From contig JAUWAE010000007.1 in NCBI GenBank assembly GCA_030602185.1, forward strand, positions 1-34,991: DNA of 34,991 nucleotides. The letters run 5' to 3'. The notes below the pieces were generated by a model that searched no databases, had not been told where the DNA came from, and saw only the letters and a list, made by a program, of their open reading frames with translations. Position 1 is the stretch's first letter, and the number at the start of each line of letters is the position of its first letter. Positions 1,540-6,197 of this stretch are shown here, in pieces. Position numbers and translations under genes: made by a program. This DNA comes from Comamonadaceae bacterium. Its GTDB lineage: Bacteria > Pseudomonadota > Gammaproteobacteria > Burkholderiales > Burkholderiaceae_C.

Positions 1540-2937
1540 ATGGCCAAAGACAAGACCCTGTACGCCTGCAACGAATGCGGCGGCACCACCCCGCGCTGGC
1601 TGGGCAAATGCCCGCACTGCAACGCCTGGAACAGCCTGGTGGAAACCGTGGCCGAAGCGCCCGCCGCCAGCAAGAACCGGCTGAGCAGCGGCACCAAAGG
1701 CCTGGCCCCCACCGCCGAGCTGGCGGTGCTCAGCGAGATCGAGGCCGCCGACGTGGCCCGGACTCCCACCGGCCTGGGCGAGCTCGACCGGGTGCTGGGC
1801 GGTGGCGTGGTGGAAGGCGGCGTGGTGCTGATCGGCGGTGACCCGGGCATCGGCAAATCGACCCTGTTGCTGCAGGCGCTGGACGCGTTGCAGCGCGCCG
1901 GGTTGGACACGCTCTACGTGACCGGCGAGGAAAGCGGCGCCCAGGTGGCGCTGCGCTCGCGCCGGCTGGGGCTGGAGCAGAGCCAGGTGAAGGTGCTGGC
2001 CGAAATCCAGCTCGAAAAAATCCTGGCCACGCTGGACGCGAAGCAGCCGGCCATCGCCGTGATCGACTCGATCCAGACGCTGTACTCCGACCAGCTGAGT
2101 TCTGCGCCGGGCTCGGTGGCGCAGGTGCGCGAATGCGCCGCCCACTTGACGCGCGCGGCCAAGGCCAGCGGCGTGGCCATCGTGCTGGTGGGCCACGTGA
2201 CCAAGGAAGGCGCGCTGGCCGGCCCGCGCGTGCTGGAACACATGGTGGACACGGTGCTGTACTTCGAGGGCGACACCCACAGCAGCTACCGGCTGATCCG
2301 CGCCATCAAGAACCGCTTCGGCGCGGTCAACGAGATCGGCGTGTTCGCCATGACCGAAAAAGGCCTCAAGGGCGTGAGCAACCCGAGCGCGATCTTTCTG
2401 TCGCAACATTCGGCCCCCGTGCCCGGCAGTTGCGTACTCGTGACGCTGGAGGGCACACGGCCCATGTTGGTGGAGATCCAGGCGCTGGTGGACAGTGGTG
2501 GCCCCAGCCCGCGCCGCCTTTCCGTGGGCCTGGACCGCGACCGGCTGGCCATGCTGCTGGCGGTGCTGCACCGCCACGCCGGCGTGGCCTGCATGGACCA
2601 GGACGTGTTCGTGAACGCGGTGGGCGGCGTGCGCATTGGCGAGCCCGCCGCCGACCTGGCGGTGATGCTGGCGATCACCAGCAGCCTGCGCGGCAAGGCG
2701 CTGCCCAAAGGCTTCATTGCCTTTGGCGAAGTGGGCCTGGCTGGCGAGGTGCGCCCTGCGCCGCGTGGGCAGGAGCGGCTGAAGGAAGCAGCCAAGCTGG
2801 GTTTCAGCGTGGCGGTGGTACCCAAGGCCAACCTGCCCAAAAAAGGCGACACCGCCATGGCCAAGGCGCTGGAGGGCATGACCATCCACGCCGTGGAGCG
2901 CATCGAGGACGCGCTGGAGGTGGTGCGGGGGCTGTGA
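1540..2937 (+). CDS. radA: RadA (Sms), recombination branch-migration ATPase
   Basis: A DNA-repair ATPase of 465 residues that promotes branch migration and D-loop processing with RecA. The N-terminal C4 zinc finger has Cys10, Cys13, Cys24 and Cys27. The RecA-like core has the Walker A GGDPGIGKST at about 99-108 and the RadA-specific KNRFG motif at about 257-261. The C-terminal third is a Lon-protease-like domain, starting around GLDRDRLAML and including the VGGVRIGEPAADLA segment. Length and domain order are typical and nothing is missing. It stands alone after the esterase gene and is followed by the leader of the queuosine block, with no obvious intrinsic terminator between them. Confidence 0.98.
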   Translation: MAKDKTLYACNECGGTTPRWLGKCPHCNAWNSLVETVAEAPAASKNRLSSGTKGLAPTAELAVLSEIEAADVARTPTGLGELDRVLGGGVVEGGVVLIGGDPGIGKSTLLLQALDALQRAGLDTLYVTGEESGAQVALRSRRLGLEQSQVKVLAEIQLEKILATLDAKQPAIAVIDSIQTLYSDQLSSAPGSVAQVRECAAHLTRAAKASGVAIVLVGHVTKEGALAGPRVLEHMVDTVLYFEGDTHSSYRLIRAIKNRFGAVNEIGVFAMTEKGLKGVSNPSAIFLSQHSAPVPGSCVLVTLEGTRPMLVEIQALVDSGGPSPRRLSVGLDRDRLAMLLAVLHRHAGVACMDQDVFVNAVGGVRIGEPAADLAVMLAITSSLRGKALPKGFIAFGEVGLAGEVRPAPRGQERLKEAAKLGFSVAVVPKANLPKKGDTAMAKALEGMTIHAVERIEDALEVVRGL

Positions 2938-2963
2938 ACACTGGACTGGCTTTCATCGGCTGT

Positions 2964-2985
2964 CCAAGTTAAAATTCCAACTTGG
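2964..2985 (+). promoter_or_regulatory. Candidate yhhQ-queCDE promoter -10 inside an inverted repeat
   Basis: TAAAAT (2970-2975) is a five-of-six match to the -10 consensus and would start RNA near 2982. It sits in a 7-bp inverted repeat, CCAAGTT (2964-2970) and AACTTGG (2979-2985), separated by eight bases. No T-run follows, so this is not a convincing radA terminator. An operator for an unknown regulator is possible. A -35 box is not clear. Confidence 0.4.
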
Positions 2986-3005
2986 CCGCCAGGTCATCAA
3001 TTCTT

Positions 3006-3046
3006 GATGGGTTCCCTCGCCCCCATCTGTCTTCAAAAAAAAGGAC
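3006..3046 (+). ncRNA. Putative preQ1 class-I riboswitch in the yhhQ leader
   Basis: A 6-bp stem GATGGG (3006-3011) / CCCATC (3022-3027) encloses a 10-base loop that begins TTCC and ends in C just before the 3' strand. It is followed by a tail with eight consecutive A residues (3035-3042) and GGA (3043-3045). The loop TCC can pair with the tail GGA to close an H-type pseudoknot. This is the preQ1-I layout: short P1, C-rich loop, A-rich L3, second helix with the 3' tail. The AGGA tail is also the Shine-Dalgarno of yhhQ, nine bases before its ATG, so ligand binding would block translation. The downstream genes are a queuosine-precursor transporter and queC/D/E, exactly the expected targets. The tail between P1 and GGA is somewhat longer than in the textbook Thermoanaerobacter example. 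Confidence 0.7.
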
Positions 3047-3053
3047 CCCCACC

Positions 3054-3722
3054 ATGACCCCCGTCCATGGCGCCGCCCCGTTGCGCGGCCGCTCCGTATT
3101 GCCGGCCCTCGTCGGCTTGCACATCGCCCTCATCATCGCCAGCAACTACCTGGTGCAACTCCCGTTCGAGCTGTGGGGGGTGCACACCACCTGGGGCTCG
3201 TTCACCTTCCCGCTGGTCTTCGTGGCCACCGACCTGACCGTGCGCCTGCTGGGCAAGGAAGTGGCCCGCGGCGTGATCACCCGCGTCATGCTGCCGGCGT
3301 TGGTGGCGTCGTACGCGGTGTCGGTGCTGTTTTTCGAAGGTGCGTTCAACGGCTGGCAGGCGCTGGGCGCGTTCAACGGCTTTGTTTTCCGCATTGCGCT
3401 GGCCAGCTTCGTGGCCTACGTGGCGGGGCAGTTGCTCGACATCGCGGTCTTTGACCGCTTGCGCCGGGTGAGCGCCTGGTGGGTGGCCCCGGCGGCATCC
3501 ACCGTGCTGGGCAGCCTCCTCGATACCGCACTGTTCTTCGCGGTGGCGTTCCATGCCAGCAGCGACCCGTTCATGGCCCAGCACTGGGTGGAAATTGCCA
3601 CGGTGGACTACTTCACCAAGCTGGCGGTGAGCCTGGCCTGCTTCCTGCCCCTGTATGGCGTGTTGCTGAGCACGCTGGTGCAACGCCTGCAGCCGGTGCC
3701 GCTGGCGGCGGGCCGCTGCTGA
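3054..3722 (+). CDS. yhhQ: YhhQ-type queuosine precursor transporter (VUT family)
   Basis: An inner-membrane importer of the 222-residue VUT/COG1738 family, whose E. coli member YhhQ takes up the queuosine precursors preQ0 and preQ1. Translation shows about six hydrophobic segments, including [16 protein letters not shown] near the N-terminus and [16 protein letters not shown] near the C-terminus. It also has the family block [22 protein letters not shown] and the polar helix SLLDTALFF. The ATG at 3054 is chosen because it follows AAGGA (3041-3045) at a good distance; an upstream in-frame start would run through the riboswitch-like leader. It is 13 bases ahead of queC and probably co-transcribed with queC-queD-queE, so salvage and synthesis would share one switch. 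Confidence 0.9.
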
Positions 3723-3735
3723 CGAGGGAGGCACC

Positions 3736-4443
3736 ATGCACACCCCTCCACCACCCGCTGTCGTCCTGCTCAGTGGTGGGCTGGACTCGACCACCGTGCT
3801 GGCCATGGCCAAGGCACAGGGCTACACCCCCTACGCGCTGAGCTTCCGCTACGGCCAACGCCACGCTCACGAACTGCAGGCCGCCGAGGCCGTGGCCCGC
3901 GCGTTGGGCGCGGCCAAGCACGTGGTCGCACAGATCGACCTGCGCGAATTTGGCGGCTCAGCCCTCACCGCCGACATCGCCGTGCCCAAGGGCCGGTCGG
4001 TGGACGACATGGGCCACGGCATCCCCGTGACCTACGTGCCCGCGCGCAACACCGTGTTCCTGAGCTTCGCGCTGGCCTGGGCCGAAACGCTGGGCGCATC
4101 GGACATCTTCATCGGCGTCAACGCGCTGGACTATTCGGGCTACCCCGACTGCCGCCCGGAGTACATCGCCGCCTTTGAAACCCTGGCCAACCTGGCCACC
4201 AAGGCCGGTGTGGAAGGCACCCAGAAGCTCAAGATCCACAGCCCGCTGATGGCCCTGAACAAGGCTCAGATCATCCAGGAAGGCCTGCGCCTGGGCGTGG
4301 ACTACGCACTCACCAGCAGCTGCTACGACCCGGGCCCGGACGGCAAACCCTGCGGCGGCTGCGATTCGTGTCTGCTGCGCGCCAAGGGCTTTGCCGAAGC
4401 AGGCCACGCGGACCCGCTGTGGGTGCGCTTTGGCATGGCCTGA
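3736..4443 (+). CDS. queC: QueC, 7-cyano-7-deazaguanine (preQ0) synthase
   Basis: A cytosolic ATP-dependent enzyme of 235 residues that converts 7-carboxy-7-deazaguanine and ammonia to preQ0. The PP-loop ATP-binding motif SGGLDS is at residues 13-18. The C-terminal zinc site has Cys196, Cys206, Cys209 and Cys212 in [19 protein letters not shown]. The family segments [17 protein letters not shown] and [16 protein letters not shown] are all present. GAGGGAGG at 3725-3732 precedes the ATG as the ribosome-binding site. It lies between yhhQ and queD in one transcription direction with short gaps. Confidence 0.98.
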
Positions 4444-4459: not shown

Positions 4460-5545
4460 ATGCACATCCTCCACACCGCCGAGGCGGGCTTTGAGGCCGC
4501 CCGGCGCATCGACGCGCTGCCCGCAGGGCACCCCAAGCAACGCCTGCACGGCCACAGCTTCGTGGCCCGCCTGCGCGGCACCACCGATGCGGGCTGGGCC
4601 GCCTTTGCCGGTGGCGAGGTGGACCAGCTGCGCCGCCAGCTGACCGCCGGCGTGCAGGTGCTGGACCACAGCTGCCTGAACGACCACGTGCCCAGCCCCA
4701 CCGACACGCAGCTGGCCCGGTGGCTGCACCAACGGCTGCAAGGCGACGGCCTGCACCTGCAACAGGTGGGCGTGCAGAGCACCCGCACCAGCGGCGTGGA
4801 GATTGACGCCCAGGGCCAGGCCCATGTGTGGCGCCGCTACGTGCTGCACGCCGCCCACCAGTTGCCCAACGTGCCGGAAGGGCACAAGTGCGGCCGCATG
4901 CATGGGCACGGCTTCGAAGTGCTGCTGCACGCCCGCCAAAGCGGCGCCACGCCAGTGGACGCCGACCAACTGGACGCCCAGTGGGCGCCGCTGCACCGGT
5001 TGCTGGACCATGCCTGCCTGAACGACATCCCCGGCCTGCAGAACCCGACGAGCGAGGTGATGTCGGGCTGGCTCTGGCGTCAGCTCAAGCCGCTGTTGCC
5101 GGAACTCTCGTGGGTGACGGTGTTTGAGACGGCATCGTGCGGTGCCAGCCACGACGGCCAGCACTACCGCATCTGGAAGGAAATGACGCTGGACAGCGCG
5201 GTGCGCCTGCGGCATGCGCCCGAACACAGCCCGCTGCAGCGCCTGCACGGGCACACCTTCACCCTGCGCCTGCACTTGTGTGCCCCGCTGGACGAAGTGA
5301 TGGGCTGGACCGTGGACTTTGGCGACGTGAAGCGGCTGTTCGACCCCATCTTCAAGGCCCTGGACCACCGCCCGCTGCACGAACTGGCCGGGCTGCCCGA
5401 CTGCGACTGCGCCAGCCTGGCGCGCTGGGTGCTGGGGCAGGCGCGCAGCGAGTTGCCCGCACTCAACCGCGTGGACCTGCACGAGACCCCGGGGTGCGGC
5501 GCCGTGGCCTTGCTGGGCGACAGCGAAGCCGCTTTGCCCATCTGA
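4460..5545 (+). CDS. queD: QueD-like protein with three tandem 6-pyruvoyl-tetrahydropterin-synthase repeats
   Basis: QueD makes 6-carboxy-5,6,7,8-tetrahydropterin from dihydroneopterin triphosphate. This protein is 361 residues, three times the usual ~120, and three PTPS repeats can be read. Repeat 2 (about 125-230) looks like a full QueD: zinc ligands His133, His148 and His150, catalytic Cys144 in GHKCGRMHGH, Asp183-His184 in LDHACLNDIPGL, and Glu223 in VFETASCG. Repeat 1 (about 1-118) keeps HGH (30-32) and LDH (68-70) but has Arg for the first zinc His, Lys26 at the Cys position and no terminal Glu. Repeat 3 (about 245-355) keeps HGH (263-265), VDFGDVKR, LDH (301-303) and the terminal Glu342 but has Leu259 at the Cys position. 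GGAGG at 4448-4452 sets the ATG at 4460. I infer that one site per chain is active and the outer repeats are structural. It lies between queC and queE. Confidence 0.88.
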   Translation: MHILHTAEAGFEAARRIDALPAGHPKQRLHGHSFVARLRGTTDAGWAAFAGGEVDQLRRQLTAGVQVLDHSCLNDHVPSPTDTQLARWLHQRLQGDGLHLQQVGVQSTRTSGVEIDAQGQAHVWRRYVLHAAHQLPNVPEGHKCGRMHGHGFEVLLHARQSGATPVDADQLDAQWAPLHRLLDHACLNDIPGLQNPTSEVMSGWLWRQLKPLLPELSWVTVFETASCGASHDGQHYRIWKEMTLDSAVRLRHAPEHSPLQRLHGHTFTLRLHLCAPLDEVMGWTVDFGDVKRLFDPIFKALDHRPLHELAGLPDCDCASLARWVLGQARSELPALNRVDLHETPGCGAVALLGDSEAALPI

Positions 5546-5561: not shown

Positions 5562-6197
5562 ATGACCTACGCCGTCAAGGAAATCTTCTACACCCTGCAA
5601 GGCGAAGGCGGGCAGGCGGGCCGCGCCGCCGTGTTCTGCCGTTTTGCAGGCTGCAACCTGTGGAGCGGGCGCGAGGAAGACCGCGCCCAGGCCATCTGCC
5701 GTTTTTGCGACACCGACTTCGTGGGCACCGACGGCACGGGCGGCGGCAAGTTTGCCACCGCCCAGGCGCTGGCTGAGGCCGTGCGCTCGCACTGGCCCAG
5801 TTCGGCAGGCGGCTCCCCGTTGGTGGTGTGCACCGGGGGTGAACCCCTGCTGCAGCTCGACGCACCGCTGATCGACGCCCTGCACGCGCAGGGGTTCGAG
5901 ATTGCCGTGGAAACCAACGGCACGCAGCCCATCCCCCCCGGGCTGGACTGGGTGTGCGTTAGCCCCAAGGCGGGCAGCGAACTGGTGGCCACGGCGGGCG
6001 ACGAGCTCAAGCTGGTGTTCCCGCAGCCGGGCGCACTGCCCGAGCAGTTCGAGCCGCTGGCGTTCCGCCACTTCTTCCTGCAGCCCATGGACGGCCCGTT
6101 GCGCGAGCAGCACACCGAGGCCGCCGTCGCGTACTGCATGGCCCACCCGCAGTGGCGCCTGTCGCTGCAGACGCACAAGCTGCTGGGGATTCCCTGA
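5562..6197 (+). CDS. queE: QueE, 7-carboxy-7-deazaguanine synthase (radical SAM)
   Basis: A radical-SAM enzyme of 211 residues that rearranges 6-carboxytetrahydropterin, the QueD product, to 7-carboxy-7-deazaguanine. The cluster motif is not the common CX3CX2C. The three cysteines are Cys31, Cys46 and Cys49, a CX14CX2C spacing known from the Burkholderia-type QueE. The substrate and cofactor elements EIFYTLQGEG at the N-terminus, CTGGEPLLQ in the middle and AVETNGTQ are present, as is SPKAG. The start is the ATG 16 bases after the queD stop, with only a weak Shine-Dalgarno, which suggests coupling to upstream translation. It is the last gene of the queuosine block. Confidence 0.97.
   Translation: MTYAVKEIFYTLQGEGGQAGRAAVFCRFAGCNLWSGREEDRAQAICRFCDTDFVGTDGTGGGKFATAQALAEAVRSHWPSSAGGSPLVVCTGGEPLLQLDAPLIDALHAQGFEIAVETNGTQPIPPGLDWVCVSPKAGSELVATAGDELKLVFPQPGALPEQFEPLAFRHFFLQPMDGPLREQHTEAAVAYCMAHPQWRLSLQTHKLLGIP

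Follow-up and report, generated by a model that had tools for sequence, protein, structure and literature searches.

The type III form of the preQ1 class I (preQ1-I) riboswitch was reportedly defined in a paper of McCown from 2014. As characterized in the available parts of two later texts (PMC10622847, PMC11625349), it has a P1 stem of 5-6 bp, a pyrimidine-rich loop with UU directly after P1, an A-rich L3, and a terminal AAGG that serves both as Shine-Dalgarno (SD) sequence and as one strand of P2. The review PMC11625349 also describes, in the parts available, an AC motif for type III. The yhhQ aptamer of E. coli has been solved by crystallography (PDB 8fza, as cited in PMC11625349), has a KD of 58 nM, and forms P2 from the pairs U11-A28, C10-G29 and C9-G30 (PMC10622847). 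In the same partial texts, type III is given as almost exclusively gammaproteobacterial and located on yhhQ (PMC10622847), and as almost exclusively restricted to Pseudomonadota (PMC11625349). Among the papers listed by literature searches, none reports type III in betaproteobacteria or on queC in its title or abstract, and the sequences discussed here may nevertheless have been listed before.

The window, that is, the whole stretch of 34,991 nucleotides analysed here, comes from a Comamonadaceae bacterium and carries on its forward strand, at 3006-3045, a leader that we hold with great confidence to be a preQ1 class I type III riboswitch. It opens with the P1 5' strand GATGGG (3006-3011), followed by the 10-nt pyrimidine-rich loop TTCCCTCGCC (3012-3021), the P1 3' strand CCCATC (3022-3027), the linker TGTCTTC (3028-3034), which varies among relatives, and the L3 run of eight A (3035-3042); AAGGA (3041-3045) closes the element. 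The sequence-only reading had described a 6-bp P1, a 10-base loop, eight A and a GGA tail, and all of these were found at the positions it gave. The stem lies within the type III range of 5-6 bp and covaries among relatives (see below). As in type III, the loop, UUCCCUCGCC, is short and pyrimidine-rich with UU after the P1 5' strand, and the tail, A8-GGA, presents AAGG after at least 4-5 A as both SD and partner of the loop CCU. The pairing of tail and loop proposed in the sequence-only reading also fits a pseudoknot, with a register one base away from the UCC-GGA suggested there: in the register of the E. coli crystal structure (available text of PMC10622847), the loop CCU (3015-3017) is the anti-SD strand of P2 and AGG (3042-3044) its 3' strand, giving the predicted pairs C3015-G3044, C3016-G3043 and U3017-A3042. 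By the same comparison, G3019 occupies the position of E. coli A13, the candidate for the specificity base being C3020 or C3021.

In E. coli K-12, the leader of yhhQ has the sequence ATTGGGTTCCCTCACCCCAAT-GGTTAATC-AAAAAGG and contains the linker GGUUAAUC that is quoted for the solved aptamer in the available text of PMC10622847. Sequence and published structure thus support the preQ1-I reading of our leader as a homologue of this aptamer, the two having in common P1, the pyrimidine loop UUCCCUC, the A-rich L3, the SD AAGG as P2 strand and yhhQ downstream. They differ in that the window has a loop of 10 rather than 9 nt, another linker, a longer A run (A8) and a four-gene run with queC-queD-queE behind the leader, whereas dcrB follows yhhQ in E. 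coli. The AC motif before the P1 3' strand, the majority consensus of type III, is absent from the window, which has GCC instead. AC is present before the same gene in relatives of the same family (L018, L019 and L028), and A with an extra C in L017; GCC may therefore be read as variation inside the type III family. Leaders of yhhQ in Vibrionaceae and other gammaproteobacteria share the window's core GGGTTCCCTCGCCCCC, and in many Vibrionaceae species GGGUUCCCUCGCCCCC is identical, with different outer P1 bases and linker; a tblastn search for queC near these Vibrionaceae leaders found none in the stretches searched, some of which were short. The queC leader of Serpentinimonas barnesii (L100) has the identical core, a 6-bp P1, A8 and AAGGAC, but stands directly on queC with no yhhQ between.

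Conservation was assessed by pattern searches and from YhhQ itself. The window's own genome (2.8 Mb, about 91% complete) has a single occurrence of the pattern GGTTCCCTNRCCC-N3-30-AAAAGG. After removal of two duplicate loci (L214, which repeats L199, and L220, which repeats L205), this pattern was found at 52 places in 51 of the 399 family genomes, against 2 genomes for the reversed control. Forty-six of these places lie before yhhQ, as in the window, and four before queC without detectable yhhQ; the remaining two (L193, L205) have neither gene downstream and were judged to be chance matches. Anchoring the sampling on YhhQ gave 32 genomes with a match among 120 of the family, yielding 30 loci, from which the 24 with a local tblastn E below 1e-10 were used and the six weaker ones excluded. 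The core GGTTCCCT[CT][AG]CCC lies within 350 nt upstream of all 14 strong YhhQ orthologues (own included), and within the same distance upstream of none of 10 more distant YhhQ homologues. With NN replacing NR, this looser pattern matched 9 of 369 genomes at the level of the class (7 places before yhhQ, own included, and 2 not; reversed control 5) and 8 of 399 at the level of the order (5 of them followed by yhhQ, own included, and 3 not; reversed control 6). Since the reversed control was nearly as frequent, lone matches of this kind mean little without gene context, and those with neither yhhQ nor queC downstream (L051, L053 and L054 in the order scan, L174 and L175 in the class scan) were judged to be chance. 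In another order of the same class, the order around G837, the stricter pattern matched 116 of 247 genomes, with none for the reversed control, and yhhQ lay within 500 nt at all 30 places examined of the 116. The exact form of the window, with G and five C in the loop (G/5C), was present in at least 115 stretches of named genomes; among the matches listed, 112 were before yhhQ (78/80 and 34/35) and one before queC (L100), no downstream gene being assigned in L124, where yhhQ is interrupted by N, or in L137, where the contig ends. Hosts among the matches listed include Vibrio, Aliivibrio, Comamonas, Acidovorax, Herbaspirillum, Marinospirillum and Thiothrix. Two individual loci are unusual in their spacing: L029 has a long linker, and L023 (forward strand, 1291 and 1473) has an intact P1 loop about 160 nt from the A run and the yhhQ SD, and could represent a naturally broken switch.

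Relatives thus keep the stem, the loop and the A run, conservation having been named as a check in the sequence-only reading, and P1 covaries. Because two MAFFT alignments misplaced the variable linker and tail, covariation was counted by register scripts rather than by a covariance model, under a fixed rule in which the number of loop C sets the register and the outer bases are not used. Among 103 unique P1 contexts, which include G/5C-search loci whose pattern fixes GGG/CCCCC and leaves pairs 4-6 free, pairs 1-3 pair in every context and are mostly G-C, pairs 1-2 being fixed by the search pattern. Pair 4 pairs in 102 and pair 5 in 94 of the 103, with U-A, A-U, G-C and C-G all represented; pair 6, which is present in the window, pairs in 44. 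Taken together, pairs 4 and 5 pair in 196 of 206 cells, and sliding by -1, 1, 2 or 3 lowers this to 35, 73, 51 and 66, respectively. When the 3' strands were shuffled, none of 2000 permutations reached the observed count for either of the two loop lengths, represented by 22 and 10 unique stems; the sequences are kin and the shuffles ignore kinship, for which the slid control corrects in part. P2 stood outside this analysis because its bases are invariant in the places compared.

A further trait of the window leader is the G that replaces A13 of E. coli, a base that contacts U11 in the pocket ceiling (PMC10622847, available text). Of the family places that precede yhhQ or queC, 50 in all, 30 have G, all with five C, and 20 have A, made up of 5 with five C, 11 with four, and 4 with three, the last four having another third P1 pair. 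Around G837, 5 of the 116 matches, whose downstream regions are mostly unchecked, have G, all with five C, and 111 have A, of which 10 carry five C and the other 101 at most four; the G/5C-form search was left out of these counts, as its pattern demanded G and five C. The sole match with G and four C, L054, is among those without yhhQ or queC downstream. G is thus seen only where the extra C is present too, and this in two distant groups; it could make a functional difference at this point of the pocket. One reading would go further and take G/5C as a distinct functional sub-form of Comamonadaceae and Vibrionaceae, which links two changes of the pocket and alters ligand kinetics or preQ1/preQ0 choice, together with a recruitment of type III in the window's clade to give feedback on de novo synthesis of preQ0 (queC-queD-queE) beside yhhQ import; as a whole, we consider it unlikely. 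Nor do we give much credit, and rather less than an even chance by a wide measure, to the same fold with a ligand preference shifted by the G and the extra C, for instance to preQ0, which is the product of QueC and the favoured cargo of YhhQ. Such a shift would agree with the location of the deviation in the pocket ceiling, with the coupling of G to the extra C, and with the preferential import of preQ0 reported for YhhQ (cited in the available text of PMC10622847). However, a sister genus (L017/L211) combines A and the extra C before the same gene, so that the two forms look interchangeable, a specificity C is kept, and the E. coli type III aptamer shows an approximately 138-fold preference for preQ1 despite standing on yhhQ as well (PMC10622847, same text). 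In our judgement the ligand is quite likely preQ1 rather than preQ0.

Rfam models the class I PreQ1 element as RF00522, presumably with the H-type pseudoknot plan of P1, loop and A-rich tail that it has in common with the window. A match to this model had been put forward as a check on the sequence-only reading; none was obtained in the window, either at the gathering score or at E up to 10 (301 and 57 bases searched), nor in 14 loci comprising its own and 13 relatives, nor in 200 family genomes, where the hits (L001-L015) all stayed below the cut-off. Run as positive control, the yhhQ leader of E. coli (L046:5150-5230) likewise gave no match at E up to 10, and since this structurally solved example is equally missed, the negative result does not discriminate and was dropped as counter-evidence. 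A weak archaeal snoRNA sR1 match at 3091-3140 on the reverse strand, within the coding sequence of yhhQ, scored 19.1 bits against a cut-off of 45 and was regarded as a chance hit. Single-sequence folding gave a weak energy (z = -1.63, with 8 of 200 shuffles equally good), and because this is unimpressive alone, the case was built on conservation, covariation and gene context. The predicted fold also contains a small competing hairpin, GUCUU/AAGGAC, which was considered and rejected as an expression platform. Together with the long A run (of 78 unique aptamers, 59 have A5, 8 have A8 and one has A9), this hairpin could speak for an element that in the own genome has decayed into a relic unable to switch or is simply a plain SD leader, a reading that we find very improbable: the core bases are intact, the GATGGG/CCCATC stem is kept with differing linkers in four related genera whose tails are A8 or A9 (L211-L218), and the hairpin, by eye, is not present in all of these near relatives.

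Upstream of the leader, radA/sms ends at 2937, and a box resembling a -10 element, TAAAAT (2970-2975, forward strand), marks a putative promoter with no -35 partner found; a consensus scan of 2880-3080 detected no sigma-70 pair. In 43 of 50 unique family leaders, a TAnnnT box that agrees with TATAAT at no fewer than 5 of the 6 positions lies within 110 nt upstream of the motif, against a mean of 3.3 and a maximum of 9 in base-shuffled controls. The GGA (3043-3045), claimed in the sequence-only reading as the ribosome-binding site of yhhQ, holds that role well, as the last G of AAGGA is 9 nt from the ATG at 3054 and a spacing of 5-9 nt is common to 46 of the 50 unique leaders (the ATG follows immediately in two, and none is found within 20 nt in two). 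A terminator scan of 2880-3080 found none on the forward strand and one terminator-like site on the reverse strand that reflects the A run; this favours control of translation. That the hairpin in the 5' leader belongs to another kind of regulator, such as a transcription attenuator, a protein-binding site or a thermosensor, is extremely improbable given the lack of a forward-strand terminator in that interval, the match of the conserved loop and A-AAGG tail to a solved preQ1 aptamer, and the queuosine precursor genes that follow nearly all places examined.

Behind the riboswitch, four genes follow on the forward strand with gaps of 13, 16 and 16 bases: yhhQ, the preQ0/preQ1 transporter (3054-3722; NF008406, PRK11212, E = 1.5e-94, and TIGR00697), queC, 7-cyano-7-deazaguanine synthase (3736-4443; TIGR00364, E = 3.1e-61), a queD-like gene for a protein with three PTPS domains (4460-5545; three stretches each of TIGR03367 and PF01242), and queE, 7-carboxy-7-deazaguanine synthase (5562-6197; TIGR04508, E = 5.8e-111). 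NCBIfam (PRK11212, QueC, QueD, QueE) thereby bears out the gene identities given from the sequence. In the queD-like chain, by eye, only the middle PTPS domain has the cysteine (GHKCGRMHGH), the outer two reading QRLHGH; a match to the three-domain queD follows queC in L097, L100 and L214-L218. The order yhhQ-queC-queD-queE recurs in Macromonas nakdongensis (L097), and queC lies within 1000 nt of the motif at 18 of 44 yhhQ places, 42 of which have more than 1400 nt of sequence. In four further genomes the switch precedes queC-queD-queE without detectable yhhQ: L216-L218 (genus g73, Serpentinimonas-type) and L215 (G088, genus g89). The frame behind the SD in L215, downstream of the motif at 365, starts MIALHGVPLWCAR, by eye like the YhhQ start MTSLHGAVELRAR of L017, and thereafter has no similarity to YhhQ; it looks like a deleted yhhQ that left a short YhhQ-like N-terminus between riboswitch and queC. 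In L217, a 34-codon frame stands directly behind the riboswitch SD, and the overlap of its TGA with the queC ATG suggests translational coupling. These genomes speak for a role of the switch in governing the synthesis genes of this clade. The proposal that one switch covers both salvage and synthesis is plausible in view of the four genomes in which the switch stands before queC and yhhQ is missing or a remnant, and its reach over queC-queD-queE in the own genome, which we infer, is in our judgement somewhat probable. The own genome also contains queF, queG and two contig-end pieces of tgt, so that preQ1 can probably be made there.

With the anatomy, the homology to E. coli type III, the covariation of P1, the overlap with the SD, the gene context and the relatives with the switch before queC established, the element would work as follows. 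When preQ1 is plentiful, it would bind between P1 and P2, the loop CCU would pair with the AGG of the SD, and ribosomes would be blocked from starting on yhhQ; when it is scarce, AAGGA would be free and yhhQ translated. Repression of translation by preQ1 is thus the presumed direction. As gaps of 13-16 nt separate yhhQ, queC, queD and queE on a single strand, this switch would probably lower queC-queD-queE too in this genome, through translational coupling or loss of untranslated mRNA. Very probably, then, it turns down both import and synthesis genes when the precursor is plentiful.

The element type itself is known; its lineage and operon context here go beyond the descriptions in the available parts of PMC10622847 and PMC11625349. 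Annotation with Rfam alone is likely to miss further type III riboswitches, since the PreQ1 model missed every type III example tried. In the family that includes the Comamonadaceae, type III is present in 50 of 399 genomes, and in one clade it stands before queC-queD-queE. The natural series A/4C, A/5C and G/5C offers a ready set for relating the pocket ceiling to ligand preference, and one tiny aptamer embedded in a Shine-Dalgarno sequence may govern both the import and the synthesis of the same base.
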